The notes beneath the pieces are model-generated. The model worked only from the letters and a program-made list of their open reading frames with translations. It did no database searches and had not been told where the DNA came from. From an uncultured Flavobacteriaceae bacterium (GTDB lineage: Bacteria > Bacteroidota > Bacteroidia > Flavobacteriales > Flavobacteriaceae): a stretch of 64,000 nucleotides of DNA. A program made the translations under genes and the position numbers. Of the stretch, positions 30,012 through 39,895 are shown one piece after another. How positions within the stretch are numbered: position 1 is the stretch's first letter; every line of letters starts with the position of its first letter. The stretch spans positions 124,001-188,000 of the forward strand of contig CANKUU010000002.1 in the NCBI GenBank assembly GCA_947486785.1. The letters are read 5' to 3'.

Positions 30012-30049
30012 TTAACCTTCTCTTAATATAGTAACATTTAGGTAACCGT
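30012..30049 (+). promoter_or_regulatory. Pho-box-like direct repeats upstream of TonB receptor
   Basis: TTAACCT-N4-TTAATAT (30012, 30023) and TAACATT-N4-TAACCGT (30032, 30043), 11-bp spacing within each pair. Confidence 0.45.
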
Positions 30050-30140
30050 TTTGCAATATCCATTTAACATACCGATAACTCGACTTTTACAAGTAGGCAG
30101 TTCTTTTGCACCGGTATTTAAAACAAACACAAACATAGTA

Positions 30141-32948
30141 ATGAAAACAATTTTAACCACGTTACTTTTAGTAGCAACGGCACAAATTTTTGCCCAAAAT
30201 ACAGGTAGTATTGGCGGTACTCTTACCGACAAAGAATTAAATAATGAGCCTCTTGCTTTTGCAAATATTTTAATTGAAGGCACCACAAAAGGCACCACTT
30301 CAGATTTTGATGGTTTATATGAAATAACCAACCTAGAACCGGGTATTTATACGGTTATATTTAGCTTTTTAGGCTATGAAACTGTTAGCATGCCAAATGT
30401 AAAGGTGGAAGCAGGAAAAATAAGCACTATAAATTTAGCAATGTCTGCAAATGCAGGAGTTGAATTAGATGCCGTAACGGTTACAACAGTAGCACGAAAA
30501 GATTCTGAAACAGCACTTTTATTAGATCAAAAGAAGGCATCGGTAGTAAAAGAAAGTATTGGTTCAATTCAACTAGGTAAAATTGGCGTTTCTGATGTTG
30601 CTACAGCTACAACAAAAATATCAGGTGTTTCAAGTAGTGAAGGATCGGGCGATGTTTTTGTAAGAGGACTGGGTGATCGGTATTTAACTACAACACTTAA
30701 CGGCTTATCCGTTCCATCAGACGACGTAGAAAAGAAAAATATTGATTTAGGCCTATTTCCAACCCGAGTAATACAAAACGTAAGTATTAGCAAAACCTAT
30801 GCTGCACAATCTTCTGCAGATCAGGCTTCTGGCAACATAGATATTAGCTCTAGAGAGTTATCTGGGTCAAGTGAGTTTAGTTTAGGTGTGCAATCTGGCA
30901 TCAATACTAACGTAGCTGCTAGTGGCGTATTTGATAATTTTAAAGCGACAGTAAATAGCAGAAATACTGATTTTGGTTTTTATAGTCAAAGTCTTTCAAC
31001 AGAAGAATTAATATCAAGACAAGGGTGGAACCCCATAAAGCATGAAACGCCTATTGATTATGCGATGAACTTTGTGGCTGGAAAAAAATTCAATAATAAA
31101 ATTTCGTTATTACTCACAGGCTCACACAAATCATCTCATGAATATGGTCAAGGTCTTTTCAGACAATATCGATCTAATTTTATTGATGATACGATTACCG
31201 ATGCAACAAATTTTAAAAGAAAAACGATTACCTCTGCTTTATTGGATATTGCTTTTTTCGTTAACGAAAAAAACAAATTAAAATCGAGTACATTTTTTGT
31301 AAACAAAATTTCTGATCAAGTATATGAAGGTGGGCGAAATGGAGAAGGAACTATTTTTGAAGAAACAGATCCGTCAGAAGGCTTATTTCAGTTTGTTCGG
31401 GATCAAAACACCAAACAAACACGCCTACTGGTAACGCAATTACTAGGAACACATACTCTAAGCGATAACAATAAATTAAGCTGGGCAGCAGGTTACAACC
31501 TTGTTAACGCCGATGAACCTAACAGAATTAGGAATGAAGTAAACTTTGATCCTGATGGATCGCTGGTACAACTTGGTAGAACAGGTGGTTTTCAGCAAAG
31601 AAAATCGAAACAAGAAATAGAAGATGTAGCCATAAATGGTTACGTAAAAGATCTTCTTACCATTTTTGATAACGACGACCAATCTTTTAAGATTGAATTA
31701 GGTTTAAATGTTCGCAACAAAGAGCGAGATTTTAGATCTCAATTTATTGGTGTAGAAGAAAGACTTACTGGTATCATAAGCCCTACAAGTATAGACAATA
31801 TCGGAGGCATTTTTCAGCCCGGTAATTTTTCTAATCGCCTGTTAAAATTGAACGTTTTACAACCAGATGTATACAACGGAACCTTAAACTCTCAGGCGGC
31901 GTTTGCAGATTTTAAATTTAACCTAAACAAGTGGAGCTTTAATGCTGGTCTACGTTATCAAAAAGATGAAATAAAAGTAGGTTTCGACGTCGGCAACTTC
32001 CCTGGTCGTGTTGGCGAAATAATTAAAGATTACAGCAGCCTTTACCCAACGGTTAATATTAAGTATGACCTAAATGAAAAGAATACGCTAAGAATGGCGG
32101 TGAGTCAAACCATAACACTTCCCGAATTTAAAGAAATTGCTCCTTTTGAATATGTTTCGCAAACTGGACAAGTAGTTAGAGGTAATCCAGATCTTGAAGC
32201 TTCAACTAATCTTAATTACGATTTAAAATGGGAATACTACCCATCGAATGGACAGTTAATATCACTGGCTTCTTTTTATAAAAATATTTCAGACCCCATA
32301 AACACCGTACAGGATAGAGGTTCTGCAGGGGTATTCTCTTATTTTAATTCTGGAGAAAAAGCAGAAGTATTTGGTCTTGAAGCCGAAACTAAAATTAACT
32401 TAATAAAACCGATTGAAAACGAAGATGATGGCACCCAATCGGGATACAATTTAAACTTAAACTTAAATGCTACGCGCATGTGGCACAGGCAAGACTTAAA
32501 AGAAGTTTACAACGAACAAGGCGACTTTGTTAGAACCTTTAGATACAAAGGTTTAACAAAAACTGATTTACAAGGTGCTGCCGATTGGATATTTAATAGC
32601 AGTTTAAACTTTTCTACCGTAGGCGAAAATGCAATAAGTGCCTCTTTAACCGCAAACTACGCATCTGATAAGATTCTTGCATTAGGAGCACCAGAAATAC
32701 AAAGTGAAAGCGAAACTTTTTATAACGACGCAATTATAGAAAAAGGATTTGTTGCTTTAGATGCTGTAGTTAGCAAAGAGTTTGGCAAACATTTTAGAGT
32801 ACGACTTATTGGTAGAAATCTTTTAAATCCGACTATAAAAAGAACACAATTAGTAAAGCCAAGTACCACAAATATAGAAACCGAACAAACCGTTAGGTCT
32901 TACACCATAGGCACCAATCTTAGCTTAGGTATTAATTACAAATTTTAA
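30141..32948 (+). CDS. TonB-dependent receptor with carboxypeptidase-like N-terminal domain
   Basis: Signal peptide, GSIGGTLTDKELNNEPLAFANILIEGTTKGTTSDFDGLYEITNLEPG, plug domain and long beta-barrel ending SLGINYKF. Start moved to internal ATG (ORF track 30051). Confidence 0.92.
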   Translation: MKTILTTLLLVATAQIFAQNTGSIGGTLTDKELNNEPLAFANILIEGTTKGTTSDFDGLYEITNLEPGIYTVIFSFLGYETVSMPNVKVEAGKISTINLAMSANAGVELDAVTVTTVARKDSETALLLDQKKASVVKESIGSIQLGKIGVSDVATATTKISGVSSSEGSGDVFVRGLGDRYLTTTLNGLSVPSDDVEKKNIDLGLFPTRVIQNVSISKTYAAQSSADQASGNIDISSRELSGSSEFSLGVQSGINTNVAASGVFDNFKATVNSRNTDFGFYSQSLSTEELISRQGWNPIKHETPIDYAMNFVAGKKFNNKISLLLTGSHKSSHEYGQGLFRQYRSNFIDDTITDATNFKRKTITSALLDIAFFVNEKNKLKSSTFFVNKISDQVYEGGRNGEGTIFEETDPSEGLFQFVRDQNTKQTRLLVTQLLGTHTLSDNNKLSWAAGYNLVNADEPNRIRNEVNFDPDGSLVQLGRTGGFQQRKSKQEIEDVAINGYVKDLLTIFDNDDQSFKIELGLNVRNKERDFRSQFIGVEERLTGIISPTSIDNIGGIFQPGNFSNRLLKLNVLQPDVYNGTLNSQAAFADFKFNLNKWSFNAGLRYQKDEIKVGFDVGNFPGRVGEIIKDYSSLYPTVNIKYDLNEKNTLRMAVSQTITLPEFKEIAPFEYVSQTGQVVRGNPDLEASTNLNYDLKWEYYPSNGQLISLASFYKNISDPINTVQDRGSAGVFSYFNSGEKAEVFGLEAETKINLIKPIENEDDGTQSGYNLNLNLNATRMWHRQDLKEVYNEQGDFVRTFRYKGLTKTDLQGAADWIFNSSLNFSTVGENAISASLTANYASDKILALGAPEIQSESETFYNDAIIEKGFVALDAVVSKEFGKHFRVRLIGRNLLNPTIKRTQLVKPSTTNIETEQTVRSYTIGTNLSLGINYKF

Positions 32949-32994: not shown

Positions 32995-34101
32995 ATGAAA
33001 CTTAAATCAATTAATCTATTTTCAATGTTAGCGTTGGGTTTAACACTATCAATAATTAGCTGTAGTAGTGATGACAATGCTACAGATCCGGGTACCTCAG
33101 GAGCAGCACCCACATGTTCTGACAATATTCAAAATGGCGATGAAACCGGTGTAGATTGCGGCGGAAGTTGTACTGCCTGTTCAGATGATAACTCATCTAC
33201 AACTAATCTTGAAGGCAATATAACTGAAGATCGTACCTTAAATGCCTCAGAAACGTATACCTTAAAAGGCACCTTAAATATAAATTCAGGTGCAACTTTA
33301 ACCATTCCAGCAGGAACAACTATTGTTTCCGAAACTGGTACCGAAAATTATATTGCAGTACAGCAAGGAGGAAAAATAGATATTCAAGGTACAGCAACTG
33401 CACCCGTAGTTATGACCTCTGAAGACGAAACTCCTGGTGATTGGGGCGGATTAGTAATTGCAGGTAAAGCTACAACGACTGAAGGTATTAATGCAACTGC
33501 AGAAGTTGGAGGAATAATTTACGGCGGTACAGATAACGCTGATGACTCTGGTTCTATAAACTACTTAATCATTAACTATGCAGGAGCTCAAATCAACTCT
33601 GAGTCTCAATATAATGGTCTTACACTTTACGCTGTTGGTTCTGAAACAAGTATCGAAAACGTTGCCATTTTAAACGGTACAGATGATGGAGTTGAATTCT
33701 TTGGCGGTACGGTAAGCGCTAGTAACTTCTATTTAGAAAATAATGAAGATGATGCTATCGATTGGACTGAGGGCTGGAACGGTACCTTAACCAATGCGTA
33801 CATATCGCATACTAGAGCAGGTTTCTCTACCGCAGTTGAAGCAGACGGGGTAAATAATAACCCTAGCCTAGTTAACCTAACTGCTGTATCAACCCAAGAA
33901 GGAACAGCTTTACAGTTTAAAGCAGAATCAGGTGCTACTATCACTAATCTTTACTTAAGTGGTTATGAAACTTTAGTTGACATGAAAGATGACGGTCCTT
34001 TAGCAAATATACAAATTGACGGGGCTACCGCTACCGTTGAAGGCCCTTATGATGAAGGAACACAAGTAGACGTTACTATGTTTGATTGGGCTAGAAACTA
34101 G
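32995..34101 (+). CDS. Surface lipoprotein with right-handed beta-helix-like repeats
   Basis: Lipobox (SIISCSSDD), Cys-rich CSDNIQNGDETGVDCGGSCTAC, repeats such as NINSGATLTIPAGTTIV. Confidence 0.7.
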   Translation: MKLKSINLFSMLALGLTLSIISCSSDDNATDPGTSGAAPTCSDNIQNGDETGVDCGGSCTACSDDNSSTTNLEGNITEDRTLNASETYTLKGTLNINSGATLTIPAGTTIVSETGTENYIAVQQGGKIDIQGTATAPVVMTSEDETPGDWGGLVIAGKATTTEGINATAEVGGIIYGGTDNADDSGSINYLIINYAGAQINSESQYNGLTLYAVGSETSIENVAILNGTDDGVEFFGGTVSASNFYLENNEDDAIDWTEGWNGTLTNAYISHTRAGFSTAVEADGVNNNPSLVNLTAVSTQEGTALQFKAESGATITNLYLSGYETLVDMKDDGPLANIQIDGATATVEGPYDEGTQVDVTMFDWARN

Positions 34102-34155: not shown

Positions 34156-34249
34156 TAAAACAACTTAACCTTTAACTTACTAATAATTGATTTTAACTTA
34201 ACTCTAATTTTACATTTCAGGCTTTACTTTGCACTTTATTATAAAAGTC

Positions 34250-34636
34250 ATGAGAAATTTGATCCTTATTAGTAGTTTTTTGCTTCTTTCAGCAAATTTG
34301 TTTGCACAAAATACAGGGAGCTTAAAAGGTATGGTTACTGATGAATCGATGAACAATGAGCCCTTATTATTGGCAAATGTTCAACTAAAAGGCAAACAAC
34401 TTGTTTCACAGACAAACTTTCATGGCAATTTTGAAATCTCTGATTTAGAAGCAGGTAACTATACAGTAGTAGTTAGCTATTTGGGTTATGAGACTAAAGA
34501 AATACCCGTTACAATTAAGAAAAATACAACTGCAGAAATTAAAGCTATTTTAAACCCTTTAGAGTTTAATTTTGATGCTATTAAAGATGCTATGGAAGAA
34601 GGAGCCAAGGTGAGCTTAACCTCACGCCAAGAATAA
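34250..34636 (+). CDS. Stand-alone carboxypeptidase-regulatory-like domain protein
   Basis: NTGSLKGMVTDESMNNEPLLLANVQLKGKQLVSQTNFHGNFEISDLEAGNYTVVVSYLGYET; no plug or barrel follows. Confidence 0.75.
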   Translation: MRNLILISSFLLLSANLFAQNTGSLKGMVTDESMNNEPLLLANVQLKGKQLVSQTNFHGNFEISDLEAGNYTVVVSYLGYETKEIPVTIKKNTTAEIKAILNPLEFNFDAIKDAMEEGAKVSLTSRQE

Positions 34637-34713: not shown

Positions 34714-35073
34714 CTAATCTCTACTGACAATACCCTCTGTATTTTTAGTTTCAGTAACGGCAGCGATTGCATTTTCATTATATTCAACTTCCTTGAGTAC
34801 ATTATTAGCCCAAAATAACCATTTTCCTGTTTTCACTCCGTTTTCATAAGAGCCCACAGTAATCATTTCTCCCTTGGAGTTATAACTAAGCCACTCACCA
34901 TGTAATTGCTTGTCTAAATTAAAAGTTCCCTTTTGGCTAATTTCACCATTCGCATGAAAAAAGGTAGCTTCTATAAGGTTAGTTTCTTTGTTCAATTTCA
35001 TTTCTGGTTTAACCTGAGCTAAACAAGTGGTAGCAAATAATAAAACCGCTATAAAAAAAATAGATTTAGTCAT
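34714..35073 (-). CDS. YwqK/MORN-like repeat exported protein
   Basis: Signal peptide then repeats FHANGEISQKGTFNLDKQLHGEWLSYNSKGEMITVGSYENGVKTGKWLFW. Confidence 0.75.
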   Translation of the reverse strand: MTKSIFFIAVLLFATTCLAQVKPEMKLNKETNLIEATFFHANGEISQKGTFNLDKQLHGEWLSYNSKGEMITVGSYENGVKTGKWLFWANNVLKEVEYNENAIAAVTETKNTEGIVSRD

Positions 35074-35109
35074 AATATTGAAAACTTAAATTATCATTCA
35101 GGTCTAAAA

Positions 35110-35160
35110 TTACATAAACTTCACATAAAAACAACATTTACGTAACATTAAATTTACATT
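35110..35160. promoter_or_regulatory. Five tandem Pho-box-like half-sites at 11-bp spacing
   Basis: TTACATA(35110) TCACATA(35121) CAACATT(35132) TAACATT(35143) TTACATT(35154), each separated by 4 bp. Confidence 0.5.
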
Positions 35161-35537
35161 AAACACATAACAGACTTTTAATCAATACATTACATATAAT
35201 TAGTTTTATTAGTTTTATTTAAAACAACTACATATATCCTGAGAAGGTAAGGCGATCAAAAAAGTTGCATCAGGGTTTAACCAACTCTTTGCGCACTAAT
35301 TTAATGGTAATGGCAGCGGAGCGAAATAAAAAGCCCCTGAAATAAGCACGTTTACGAAAATTTATTTAAAACAAAATATCCTAAGCCTAAAACACCTAAC
35401 TTTTAATTTATATTTGATGAATTCATAGGAAGAGTAATACCCTATATTGTATTCCTAAATAAATACATTGCTTTATTTTTATAAAAGCTTCTTAAACGAA
35501 CGAATAAAGCCTTAGAAAGTTAAAAACTAGTAAGTAC

Positions 35538-36743
35538 ATGAAATTGAGATTTGTTTCGCTTTTAGCACTTTTGTCAATTTACACCATGTCAATTGCCCAA
35601 GAGTCAAACGCACCAGCCTACGGAAAAGGACTTTTTAATTTGATAGGAAAAGACAGTACTTGGAGTATGAAAATTGGCACGAGAATGCAATTTTTAACAA
35701 CAGCTAGCTGGACTAAACAGGAAAACGATGGCCTTAGCGACCCAAAACAAAATTTTTTAATAAGGCGCGCACGACTAAAACTAGATGGCTTTGCGTATGC
35801 TCCTAAACTAAGATATAAAATTGAACTAGGGCTTTCAAACCGTGATATCTCAGGGGGCTCCGAATTTACAAGTAATGCCCCAAGGTATATTTTAGATGCC
35901 GTAATTAAGTGGAATTTCTATAAAGATTTTGATTTATGGATGGGACAGTCAAAACTTCCTGGTAATATTGAGCGGATCATATCTTCAGGTAATTTACAAC
36001 AGGTAGATCGTTCGCTACTAAATAGTAGTTTCAATATAGATCGTGATCTCGGACTACAACTACGTCACCACTTCACCCTCTCGAATAAATTTTTAATTCG
36101 TGAAAAATACGCAATTACCATGGGCGAAGGCAGAAACATAACCACAGGAAACTTAGGTGGTTTTCAGCATACCTTGCGGTTAGAGCTATTACCATTTGGG
36201 GCATTTACAGCAAACGGTGACTATAGCGGTAGTGATTTAAAACGAGAAGAAAAACCAAAATTATTGATAGCTGCAACCTATGATTCGAACCAAAATGCTG
36301 TAAAAACCAGAAGTAACCAAGGTAAGTATATGAGAACCGATACTGGTTTTTACGAGACAAACATTAACACCATTTTCATAGATGCCATGTTTAAATACAA
36401 TGGAATTTCTTTCATGGCAGAGTATGCAAATAGATTGGCAAGCGACCCCATAGCCAAAAATACTGATGGAACACCCACTGGTGATGTAGTGGAAGTAGGT
36501 ACGGGTTTAAATCTACAATCAGGATATTTATTTCAAAATAATTGGGAAATATCAGGCCGTTATACGGCTATTAAACTAGATCCTATTCTTATGACGAAGA
36601 ATCTACAGAAGCAATATACCCTTGGCCTTTCTAAATTTATACACGGCCATAAATTAAAAGTTCAGACCGATCTAAGTTATCTTTCTGTTGATAATACTAC
36701 TAATAGCGTACTATTTAGAATACAAGTAGACATGCACTTTTAA
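35538..36743 (+). CDS. OprO/OprP-like phosphate-selective porin
   Basis: 401 aa; signal peptide, FLIRRARLKLDGFAYAPKLRYKIELGLSN, DLWMGQSKLPGNIERIISSGNLQQVDRS, ends with FRIQVDMHF. Confidence 0.8.
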   Translation: MKLRFVSLLALLSIYTMSIAQESNAPAYGKGLFNLIGKDSTWSMKIGTRMQFLTTASWTKQENDGLSDPKQNFLIRRARLKLDGFAYAPKLRYKIELGLSNRDISGGSEFTSNAPRYILDAVIKWNFYKDFDLWMGQSKLPGNIERIISSGNLQQVDRSLLNSSFNIDRDLGLQLRHHFTLSNKFLIREKYAITMGEGRNITTGNLGGFQHTLRLELLPFGAFTANGDYSGSDLKREEKPKLLIAATYDSNQNAVKTRSNQGKYMRTDTGFYETNINTIFIDAMFKYNGISFMAEYANRLASDPIAKNTDGTPTGDVVEVGTGLNLQSGYLFQNNWEISGRYTAIKLDPILMTKNLQKQYTLGLSKFIHGHKLKVQTDLSYLSVDNTTNSVLFRIQVDMHF

Positions 36744-36770: not shown

Positions 36771-36820
36771 ATGATTCAAAAGACTATAGATATTTGTAAA
36801 CTTATTTGACACCAAAAATT

Positions 36821-39124
36821 ATGGATAACATTTACTTTATAATGATTATTGCTCTTGCAGCTTTGGCAATCGCAGATTTGGTTGTTGGCGTTAGTAATGA
36901 TGCTGTAAATTTCTTGAATTCGGCTATAGGCTCAAAAGCTATTTCTTTCAGAACCATTATGATTGTTGCCAGTTTAGGTATTGCCTTTGGGGCAATATTT
37001 TCAAGTGGAATGATGGAGGTTGCTCGAAAAGGCATTTTTAACCCAAGTGAATTTTACTTTGATGAAATAATGTTCATTTTTATGGCGGTAATGATTACCG
37101 ACATACTATTACTTGATTTCTTCAATACCTTAGGAATGCCAACATCTACAACCGTTTCTATTGTTTTTGAACTGTTGGGTGCTGCGGTTGCAATGTCCTT
37201 AATTAAAATTGGAGCTGATGGGGGTAATTTTGGAGAGGTAGTTAACTATATAAATACAACAAAAGCAGGTGAAATTATATATGGTATATTATTATCTGTT
37301 GTGGTCGCTTTTTCTATTGGTGCCATAGTACAATGGATTTCGCGTTTGTTATTATCCTATCATTTTGAGCGAAAAGCTAAATGGGTTGGTGCTCTTTTCG
37401 GTGGTGTAGCCCTTTCAGCTATAACCTACTTTATTCTTATGAAAGGAATAAAAGGAACTGCTTTTGCAAAAGAAAGCTACGACCTTATTGGCGGTAGCAC
37501 GATAAAACATTTTCTTGAAGAAAATTGGGTTTCAATCGCAGGAGTCAACTTTGTAATTTGGTCTATTCTATCCTATATTTTAATGAATTTCGCTAAGGCC
37601 AATATTTATAAAATAATTATTGGTGTAGGCACATTTGCCTTAGCACTTGCCTTTGCTGGAAATGATTTAGTAAATTTTGTTGGTGTACCTATTGCGGCTT
37701 GGCAATCTTATGAAGCTTGGATAGCGTCGGGCACTGCTGCATCAGAATTTAGTATGTCCGTATTAGATGCCAAAGTACCCACGCCAACATTACTACTATT
37801 TATTGCAGGTGTAATTATGGTAGTTACACTTTGGTTTTCAAGCAAGGCAAAGGCAGTCGTAAAAACCTCTTTAGATCTCTCAAGTCAAGAAGAAACTAAC
37901 GAACGCTTTCAACCGAACTTTATTTCCCGTAGTTTGGTACGCACAGCCGTTTCCTTTTCTAATATGATTTGGCAAATTGTGCCAAATTCTGCAAAAGAAA
38001 AAATTGAAAATCAATTTGAAAAACCCGTAATTCAGCTCGCAAAAAATAAAGTTCATGAGCTTCCTGCTTTTGATATGGTAAGGGCAGCAGTTAACTTAAT
38101 GGTTGCAGGTATATTAATTTCAATAGCTACATCTTACAAACTTCCATTATCTACAACTTATGTAACTTTTATGGTTGCCATGGGAACTTCATTAGCAGAT
38201 AGAGCATGGGGTGCAGAAAGCGCCGTATATCGAGTTGCTGGCGTACTTAATGTAATAGGCGGTTGGTTTGGTACCGCCATTGTTGCCTTTATTGCTTCTG
38301 GGTCAATTTTAGCGCTAATCAGTTTTGGTAAAGGCTCTGCCATTGCGGTATTACTTTTCGTTGCGATTTTACTTTTAGCAAGAAACTACATTTCACATAA
38401 TAAGAAATCAAAAGAAATTAAAGCTGAAGATTCATTAACCAAAGCAGAAAGCAGCTCTATACAAGGTGTTATAGAAGAAAGTGCAAATAATATCTCGAAC
38501 ATTATAAAAAGAACGAATAGAATATACACCAATTCTATTAACGGTCTTTCAGTACAAAACCTTGAATTACTAAAAAAGAATAAGAAACAAGGCGCAAAAT
38601 TGTCTAACGAAATAGATGATATACGTGATCATATTTTCTATTTCATTAAAAATTTAGATGAAGCTAGTGTAGGTGCCAGTAACTTCTACATTACCGTTTT
38701 AGGACACTTAACTGACATTACACAATCTTTAGAATACATAGGAAAAGTAAGTCTAAAACACATCAACAATAATCACAAAAAATTAAAATACAATCAAATC
38801 AAAGAACTCAAGCAAATAGATCAAAAATTAGAAGAAATATTTACGACCACTCAAGAAGCTTTTGATAATAGATCTTTTGAAGACATTGGAAGGGTATTAG
38901 CTAAAAAACAAGAATTATTTGATTTAATCTCCGAAAAAATTCAGATTCAAGTTGCACGCACAAGAACGGTAGAATCTAGTCCTAAAAACACTACTTTATA
39001 CTTCTCATTACTTTTAGAAACAAAAGATTTAATGACTACTACCATGACCCTTTTAGAGCTCTATTATAACGAACACGACAGCTCAATTACCCCAGCAACA
39101 ATTGATGAACCAGCTGAAAATTAA
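36821..39124 (+). CDS. PiT family inorganic phosphate transporter with C-terminal PhoU/DUF47-like helical domain
   Basis: VGVSNDAVNFLNSAIGSKA and AGNDLVNFVGVPIAAWQSYEAW signatures; ~230-aa soluble helical tail. Start moved to internal ATG (ORF track 36806). Confidence 0.9.
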   Translation: MDNIYFIMIIALAALAIADLVVGVSNDAVNFLNSAIGSKAISFRTIMIVASLGIAFGAIFSSGMMEVARKGIFNPSEFYFDEIMFIFMAVMITDILLLDFFNTLGMPTSTTVSIVFELLGAAVAMSLIKIGADGGNFGEVVNYINTTKAGEIIYGILLSVVVAFSIGAIVQWISRLLLSYHFERKAKWVGALFGGVALSAITYFILMKGIKGTAFAKESYDLIGGSTIKHFLEENWVSIAGVNFVIWSILSYILMNFAKANIYKIIIGVGTFALALAFAGNDLVNFVGVPIAAWQSYEAWIASGTAASEFSMSVLDAKVPTPTLLLFIAGVIMVVTLWFSSKAKAVVKTSLDLSSQEETNERFQPNFISRSLVRTAVSFSNMIWQIVPNSAKEKIENQFEKPVIQLAKNKVHELPAFDMVRAAVNLMVAGILISIATSYKLPLSTTYVTFMVAMGTSLADRAWGAESAVYRVAGVLNVIGGWFGTAIVAFIASGSILALISFGKGSAIAVLLFVAILLLARNYISHNKKSKEIKAEDSLTKAESSSIQGVIEESANNISNIIKRTNRIYTNSINGLSVQNLELLKKNKKQGAKLSNEIDDIRDHIFYFIKNLDEASVGASNFYITVLGHLTDITQSLEYIGKVSLKHINNNHKKLKYNQIKELKQIDQKLEEIFTTTQEAFDNRSFEDIGRVLAKKQELFDLISEKIQIQVARTRTVESSPKNTTLYFSLLLETKDLMTTTMTLLELYYNEHDSSITPATIDEPAEN

Positions 39125-39178
39125 CGGTTATTTTAGTTTCATAAAATATAATTATATTGTGTTTTTAAAAATATGGTA

Positions 39179-39895
39179 ATGAAGTACATTAGTTTTATAA
39201 TTTTGGTTTTTTTTAGTTTATTTTCTTTTGCACAAGAATTAACCGGAGCTCAGCTTCTTGATAAAGCCATTAAATACCACGACCCTAACGGCAACTGGTC
39301 TACTTTTGAAGGTAATTTAAGCGTTACCATGAAAACACCCGATAAGAATGAAAGAGTTAGTGAAATTACCATAAATCTAATAAAAGAATATTTTCAGGTC
39401 ACTTCTAAAAAAAACGGATCGGTTGTAAAGCAAACCTTAGATAAAGACAACTGTCATTTAACATTAAATGGCAAAAGCACTATTTCAGAAGAGGAGCAAA
39501 AAAAACACGGTCTAAGTTGCGAACGTGCCAAAATGTTTAAAAACTATTATACCTACCTCTATGGTCTGCCCATGAAATTGAAGGACAAAGGAACTCTTGT
39601 CGACCCGAAAACAAGGTTAAAAAAATTTAAAGGCAAAGAATATCTTGTTTTAAAAGTAAACTATAAACAAGATGTGGGTAAAGATACTTGGTACTTTTAC
39701 TTCGACCCCAAAACCTATGCCATGAAGGTATATCAATTTTTTCATGACGAAACTATAAATGATGGAGAATATATTCTTCTTTCTGATGAGCTAGAATATA
39801 ACCAAATTAAACTGCCACAAAACAGAGCATGGTACTACAATAAAAACGACCAACACTTAGGTACAGACATTTTAACAAAAGCTTCACCCCTTTAA
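39179..39895 (+). CDS. DUF6503-like exported protein
   Basis: Signal peptide, LTGAQLLDKAIKYHDPNGNWSTFEGNLSVTM. Confidence 0.65.
   Translation: MKYISFIILVFFSLFSFAQELTGAQLLDKAIKYHDPNGNWSTFEGNLSVTMKTPDKNERVSEITINLIKEYFQVTSKKNGSVVKQTLDKDNCHLTLNGKSTISEEEQKKHGLSCERAKMFKNYYTYLYGLPMKLKDKGTLVDPKTRLKKFKGKEYLVLKVNYKQDVGKDTWYFYFDPKTYAMKVYQFFHDETINDGEYILLSDELEYNQIKLPQNRAWYYNKNDQHLGTDILTKASPL

Follow-up and report, generated by a model that had tools for sequence, protein, structure and literature searches.

The locus considered here carries five short direct repeats at a strict 11-bp spacing between a gene for a YwqK-like protein and a gene for a putative phosphate-selective porin, which raises the question of what binds there, in response to what, and which of the two neighbours it controls. 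Pho boxes, the operators of the phosphate response, are built of 7 + 4-nt direct repeats whose sequence varies among species (PMC4415409). A sequence-only reading of the window, that is, of the whole 64,000-nt stretch analysed, had taken the repeats for a PhoB/OmpR-type operator with a half-site different from that of E. coli. We examined this proposal by sequence analysis of the window, of the genome to which it belongs and of related Flavobacteriaceae.

The phased array and its neighbours

The window features on which the argument draws are listed below.

30031-30096, plus strand: possible weak, degenerate 11-bp-phased array GTAACATTTAG GTAACCGTTTT GCAATATCCAT TTAACATACCG ATAACTCGACT TTTACAAGTAG, then AGTTCTTTTGC; low matrix scores
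30051-32948, plus strand: TonB-dependent receptor gene (domain match), the start codon probably being the ATG at 30142
32995-34101, plus strand: secreted lipoprotein-like gene, which adjoins the TonB receptor gene in relatives
34229-34636, plus strand: CarboxypepD_reg-like small secreted protein gene (domain match; relatives compared)
34714-35073, minus strand: gene for a YwqK-like secreted protein of 119 aa, a MORN_2 repeat variant (PF07661, 24.8 bits, below the 29.6 cut-off)
35105-35112, minus strand: candidate -7 element of ywqK, TAATTTTA, 1 bp off and with one mismatch to TAnnTTTG
35109-35163, plus strand: five-unit 11-bp direct-repeat array, proposed as a Pho box array on its phasing and ywqK-side conservation
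35538-36743, plus strand: Porin_O_P family (phosphate-selective porin) gene (domain match; relatives compared)
36806-39124, plus strand: PiT-type phosphate transporter gene (PHO4, PF01384)
39173-39895, plus strand: DUF6503 protein gene, often next after PiT in relatives

The array occupies part of a 464-bp gap between ywqK, on the minus strand, and the porin gene, which is followed by the PiT gene, its probable operon partner. The ywqK ATG (35073) and the first half-site are 36 nt apart, and the porin ATG lies 377 nt downstream of the array. Of these genes ywqK is the one most closely linked to the array. The PiT protein is about 75-80% identical to those of Maribacter and related genera, relatives that place the organism in the Flavobacteriaceae, and the secreted lipoprotein-like protein (32995-34101) had no match among Pfam and NCBIfam families. 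A search of the same genome for PstS (PF12849) gave no match, and PiT and the porin may therefore be the main phosphate route of this organism.

Five 7-bp half-sites at exact 11-bp steps, separated by 4-bp spacers, had been described, and re-reading of the sequence confirmed every position: TTACATA at 35110, TCACATA at 35121, CAACATT at 35132, TAACATT at 35143 and TTACATT at 35154, each followed by 4 bp. The repeats are thus tandem and direct, with seven conserved and four less conserved positions, and their half-site reads NNACAT(A/T), not the CTGTCAT of the E. coli-type Pho box. The unit is better taken as an 11-mer, NTNACATTAAN, than as a 7-mer with a random spacer. Tandem Repeats Finder did not detect the window array, presumably because its copies are too diverged. 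The ACAT cores begin at 35112, 35123, 35134, 35145 and 35156, and no sixth copy follows in register, the next ACAT (35165) coming after a step of 9 bp.

On both strands of the whole window this is the sole run of more than two ACATs phased at 11 bp. When the window was shuffled 200 times (Markov-1), phased runs never exceeded 3 copies; three shuffles attained that length, and the maximum was 1 or 2 in the rest. Further arrays in the 3.57-Mb genome were sought by pattern searches. A three-copy pattern with ≤2 mismatches matched five times, three of these matches being overlapping registers of the window array, and its reversed control had no match in the same search. The two remaining matches were weak; one, at C20:71520, proved meaningful as the rsmG-linked array described below. 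Few other strong arrays were found by a strict search, suggesting that the regulon in this genome is either small or built on degenerate sites. Elsewhere in the window, degenerate 11-bp-phased TAAC units at 30031-30110, 5' of the TonB receptor ATG, are by their sequence a possible weak array. A similar layout is seen 5' of TonB receptors at L153, L155, L174 and L182.

The gap has one further peculiarity, a perfect 14-bp direct repeat (TTTATTTAAAACAA) at 35214-35227 and 35361-35374 around a more GC-rich stretch of ~133 bp. This stretch looks like an insertion, which may have displaced the porin promoter. The idea of a mobile or repeated element in the gap was rejected, as the gap is single in the genome save for one 25-bp match.

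Recurrence and orientation across Flavobacteriaceae

Related genomes had been named as the place to check the motif, and the motif does recur there before phosphate-uptake genes, both at PiT loci and, in genera that have them, at porin-pst operons. In 79 independent named Flavobacteriaceae PiT loci (L105, which had helped to build the matrix, was omitted) there were 54 three-unit 11-bp arrays, 46 of them before ywqK or the porin gene. The largest class was inverted and on the ywqK side (32 of 54, corresponding to 32 of the 35 loci with ywqK); the others were direct at the porin (14), direct at PiT (2) or in other gaps (6), and none of the 54 was classed inside a coding ORF. Control spacings of 8, 9, 10, 12, 13 and 14 bp gave 0-2 matches each in the same 79 loci. 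The porin figure, 14 of 40, is a minimum, since in many porin promoters just two units are strong, too few to pass the threshold. A stringent porin-promoter pattern applied across the genus was abandoned as too strict, having recovered one known array.

Close relatives show the same arrangement in more than one form. In orthologous porin loci of seven congeners the ywqK-side array was clear in some, and a second array, absent in the window species, stood directly 5' of the porin gene. Five congeners without an adjacent porin gene keep the array between ywqK and PiT, and at L138 and L147, where a long distance separates ywqK from the porin gene, the array is still beside ywqK. One congener also has an extra 587-aa membrane protein, Na+/phosphate cotransporter-like by eye, encoded convergently to PiT (L061:1784-3547). 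The link to pst was examined in other genera, the window genome being without a PF12849 match: where PstSCAB is present, most porin-pstSCAB operons open with TTAACATT followed by TTATTTG or TTCTTTG, and at L096 and L102 ywqK with its own array adjoins an array-bearing porin-pstSCAB operon. PiT and pstSCAB loci therefore share an operator, so that one operator serves either transporter type. Placement at phosphate-uptake promoters (porin, PiT and porin-pstSCAB) is accordingly recurrent across genomes.

The arrays also stand at fixed distances from core promoter elements. TAnnTTTG is the -7 element of Bacteroidota. Arrays at porin and pst genes run with the gene, and in 32 of 37 promoters TTnTTTG comes after the array at a constant +5 bp, whereas those at ywqK run against the gene, with TAnnTTTG at +19 bp exactly matched in 16 of 36 promoters and matched with ≤1 mismatch in 23. 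This fixed spacing in both orientations suggests that both types of array occupy the position of an upstream promoter element. The spacing is kept in relatives and degenerate in the window, where the candidate box TAATTTTA (35112-35105) overlaps the first half-site and would make a weak -7 element of ywqK. Comparison of these sequences places the window array in the inverted, ywqK-side type, the porin-proximal array of relatives being missing. Sequence comparison thus directly shows the array, how far it is conserved, that it goes with phosphate-uptake genes and that its distance from the -7 element is fixed in relatives. The existence of two fixed orientations, direct before porin and pst genes and inverted before ywqK, appears to be new within the searchable open literature.

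Another recurrent array, TTTACAATTAATTAACGTTAAATTTACATTGAA, is found close to where rsmG ends (3'). On the opposite strand, ~55 nt away and in the same inverted geometry as at ywqK, is a conserved ORF of 40-43 aa whose product ends in the motif KxYAxxCRxSYxRMLSL. The ORF was present in 9 of 9 congeners examined and, by profile search, in 16 further genera, with an array nearby in 14 of the 16; an inverted Pho-type array thus lies ~55 nt 5' of it in 23 of 25 genomes. Differences between copies fall mostly at third codon positions (516, against 233 at first and 165 at second positions), which shows that the ORF is coding. The ~42-aa protein had no Pfam or NCBIfam match. Its loci outside the window are as follows.

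G000:C20:71591-71719 (L203:1501-1629, L005): copy of the ~42-aa ORF in the window genome
L027, L028, L048, L050-L054, L204-L217 and L219: other ~42-aa ORF loci

A small RNA driven by the array was also considered, as 377 bp of non-coding plus strand follow the window array and the rsmG-linked arrays point into gaps. This idea was dropped because the sequence past the rsmG-linked arrays is not conserved, while the opposite strand encodes the conserved small protein. We tentatively propose instead a Pho operator code with two orientations, in which direct arrays at TTnTTTG would activate porin and pst genes, inverted arrays at ywqK and the ~42-aa gene would give a different output (repression, or activation via a different contact), and the ~42-aa protein would join the phosphate response as a new member across the family; as a whole this proposal is plausible without being the outcome we would expect.

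Regulator, target and alternative readings

A full-length OmpR-family response regulator with an adjacent PhoR-like kinase is encoded in the window genome at G000:C1:285,628. PhoB was the best model for the regulator, with scores below the curated cut-offs of both PhoB models (213 versus 296.2 bits; 205.3 versus 270 bits), so that PhoB orthology is assigned by best match and context only. A related element of two half-sites lies 5' of this phoB-like gene, as autoregulation would predict, and half-sites 5' of the gene are conserved in most of 14 congeners, L201 being a case where they are weak or missing. Two further full-length PhoB-like response regulators are encoded at C18 and C4; no array was seen at these genes. 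In some genera the regulator is tied to the transporter, a phoB-phoR-like pair lying directly 3' of PiT at L142 and L147; the PhoB-like and PhoR-like proteins of these two species are 77/63% and 58/51% identical to the window genome's pair.

We consider it highly probable that the window array is a Pho box array bound under low phosphate by a flavobacterial PhoB/PhoP-type regulator, and this regulator is probably the product of the pair at G000:C1:285,628. Upon phosphate scarcity the PhoR-like kinase would phosphorylate the regulator, several molecules of which would then bind the array head to tail, one per 11-bp unit; PhoB~P so bound would act on ywqK and perhaps on the porin-PiT operon too. 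Sequence comparison gives good support to the operator class and to its link with phosphate genes, and the proposal of a PhoB/OmpR-type operator with a non-E. coli half-site gains from the retention of the array in its position in dozens of Flavobacteriaceae, from its occurrence before PiT, Porin_O_P and porin-pstSCAB, from the element at the phoB-like promoter and from the TTTAACA core obtained by DAP-seq of a flavobacterial PhoP (PMC9603813). We infer the binding, the phosphate dependence, its sign and the effect on transcription.

The promoter controlled is the least certain part. The array had been read as lying 5' of ywqK and also facing the porin gene: its place at the ywqK promoter held, in inverted orientation, while the porin's own direct array of relatives proved to be absent here. 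Most likely ywqK is the direct target because the array lies, inverted, at its upstream promoter element position. With the porin-proximal array of its relatives lost in this species, the porin-PiT operon at a distance of 377 bp may be a second target. That loss, the direction of the half-sites, which point at the porin gene, and the same array between ywqK and PiT in porin-less congeners would also suit an array that, as a distal activating site or through an upstream promoter, serves chiefly the porin-PiT operon across 377 bp and not ywqK. This seems unlikely, given that relatives have both a proximal porin array and a ywqK-side array, that on the ywqK side TAnnTTTG keeps a constant offset of +19 and that the array stays by ywqK when the porin gene is distant. 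Classical activating Pho boxes do not run against their gene as the window array does against ywqK, which is a counterpoint to the Pho box reading; so are the scarcity of other strong arrays in this genome, the PhoB scores below cut-off, the lack of significant OprP induction in F. johnsoniae (PMC8115612), and the comparison with ArcA and the many non-phosphate targets reported for Riemerella anatipestifer PhoP (PMC9603813). An inverted array could be a repressor site that turns ywqK off at low phosphate. Its orientation opposite to porin and pst arrays would fit this, as would its abutting or overlapping of the ywqK -7 box, which in the window extends to the overlap of the first half-site with the candidate box; since the upstream-element position is taken in both orientations, however, we regard repression as possible but doubtful.

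Phosphate itself might enter only indirectly, if another OmpR/PhoB-family regulator, either a different response regulator of this genome or one of an ArcA-like redox type, bound the array. Repeats of 11 bp are general to this DNA-binding family, the regulators at C18 and C4 offer candidates, and the R. anatipestifer PhoP motif was found similar to that of ArcA (PMC9603813). We nevertheless judge this improbable: the arrays follow the phoB-like promoter as well as ywqK, porin, pst and PiT genes, two species have phoBR-like genes next to PiT, and no array was seen at the C18 and C4 genes. An origin in chance or in the structural phasing of AT-rich DNA (intrinsic curvature), with no regulator involved, could appeal to the AT-rich region and to a period near the helical repeat. 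The ACAT core never loses its C, however, the array is conserved from genus to genus, many of them in all, and control spacings yield next to nothing; judged by conservation across these sequences, this explanation is close to refuted and scarcely credible. A Pho box array bound by a PhoB/PhoP-type regulator thus remains our preferred reading.

Relation to known phosphate operators

Much algal matter in the sea is degraded by Flavobacteriaceae, which often live at low phosphate, and an operator with spacing rules makes their phosphate regulon predictable across the family. The YwqK-like and ~42-aa proteins, both uncharacterised, are flagged as likely members of that regulon, and the orientation of the arrays raises a testable question on operator function. 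The operator is of a known kind, with a half-site previously seen in one flavobacterium. A search of the open literature, subscription literature lying outside it, found no account of a Pho operator common to the Flavobacteriaceae, and in such open papers neither its distribution across the family, nor the two orientations of the array, nor the ~42-aa protein appears to have been described.

The gene types of the window (OprP, TonB receptor, lipoprotein) together with phoBR are also those of the F. johnsoniae phoBR / PUSIV cluster, which differs in gene order and for which the main text gives no Pho box or motif (PMC8115612). Phosphate depletion strongly induces the TonB receptor, the lipoprotein and PhoB of this cluster, and the window TonB receptor shares domain types with the induced receptor; the F. 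johnsoniae OprP gene was not significantly induced (log2FC -1.3, p 0.25) (PMC8115612). In R. anatipestifer, a related flavobacterium, TTTAACA was the most conserved core of the PhoP DAP-seq motif, and EMSA showed binding at the protein's own phoPR promoter (PMC9603813). This core matches the half-site of the arrays described here, so the half-site itself is not new. The authors compared the motif with that of ArcA and reported many non-phosphate targets; the account, as far as accessible, presents a single motif and stresses virulence and Bat genes, and within that part the 11-bp tandem architecture, the two-orientation pattern and porin, PiT or pst targets go unmentioned (PMC9603813).

Like the E. 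coli PhoB Pho box (CTGTCAT-N4), the flavobacterial array consists of 7 + 4 = 11-bp direct repeats, takes the upstream-element position and is linked to phosphate uptake; it departs from that operator in its half-site (TNACATT), in having three to five units and two orientations, and in its Bacteroidota-type -7 boxes. The Bacillus subtilis PhoP box, with TTAACA-like repeats, has almost the half-site of the flavobacterial array and likewise an 11-bp period; the two belong to different phyla, promoter types and gene sets.
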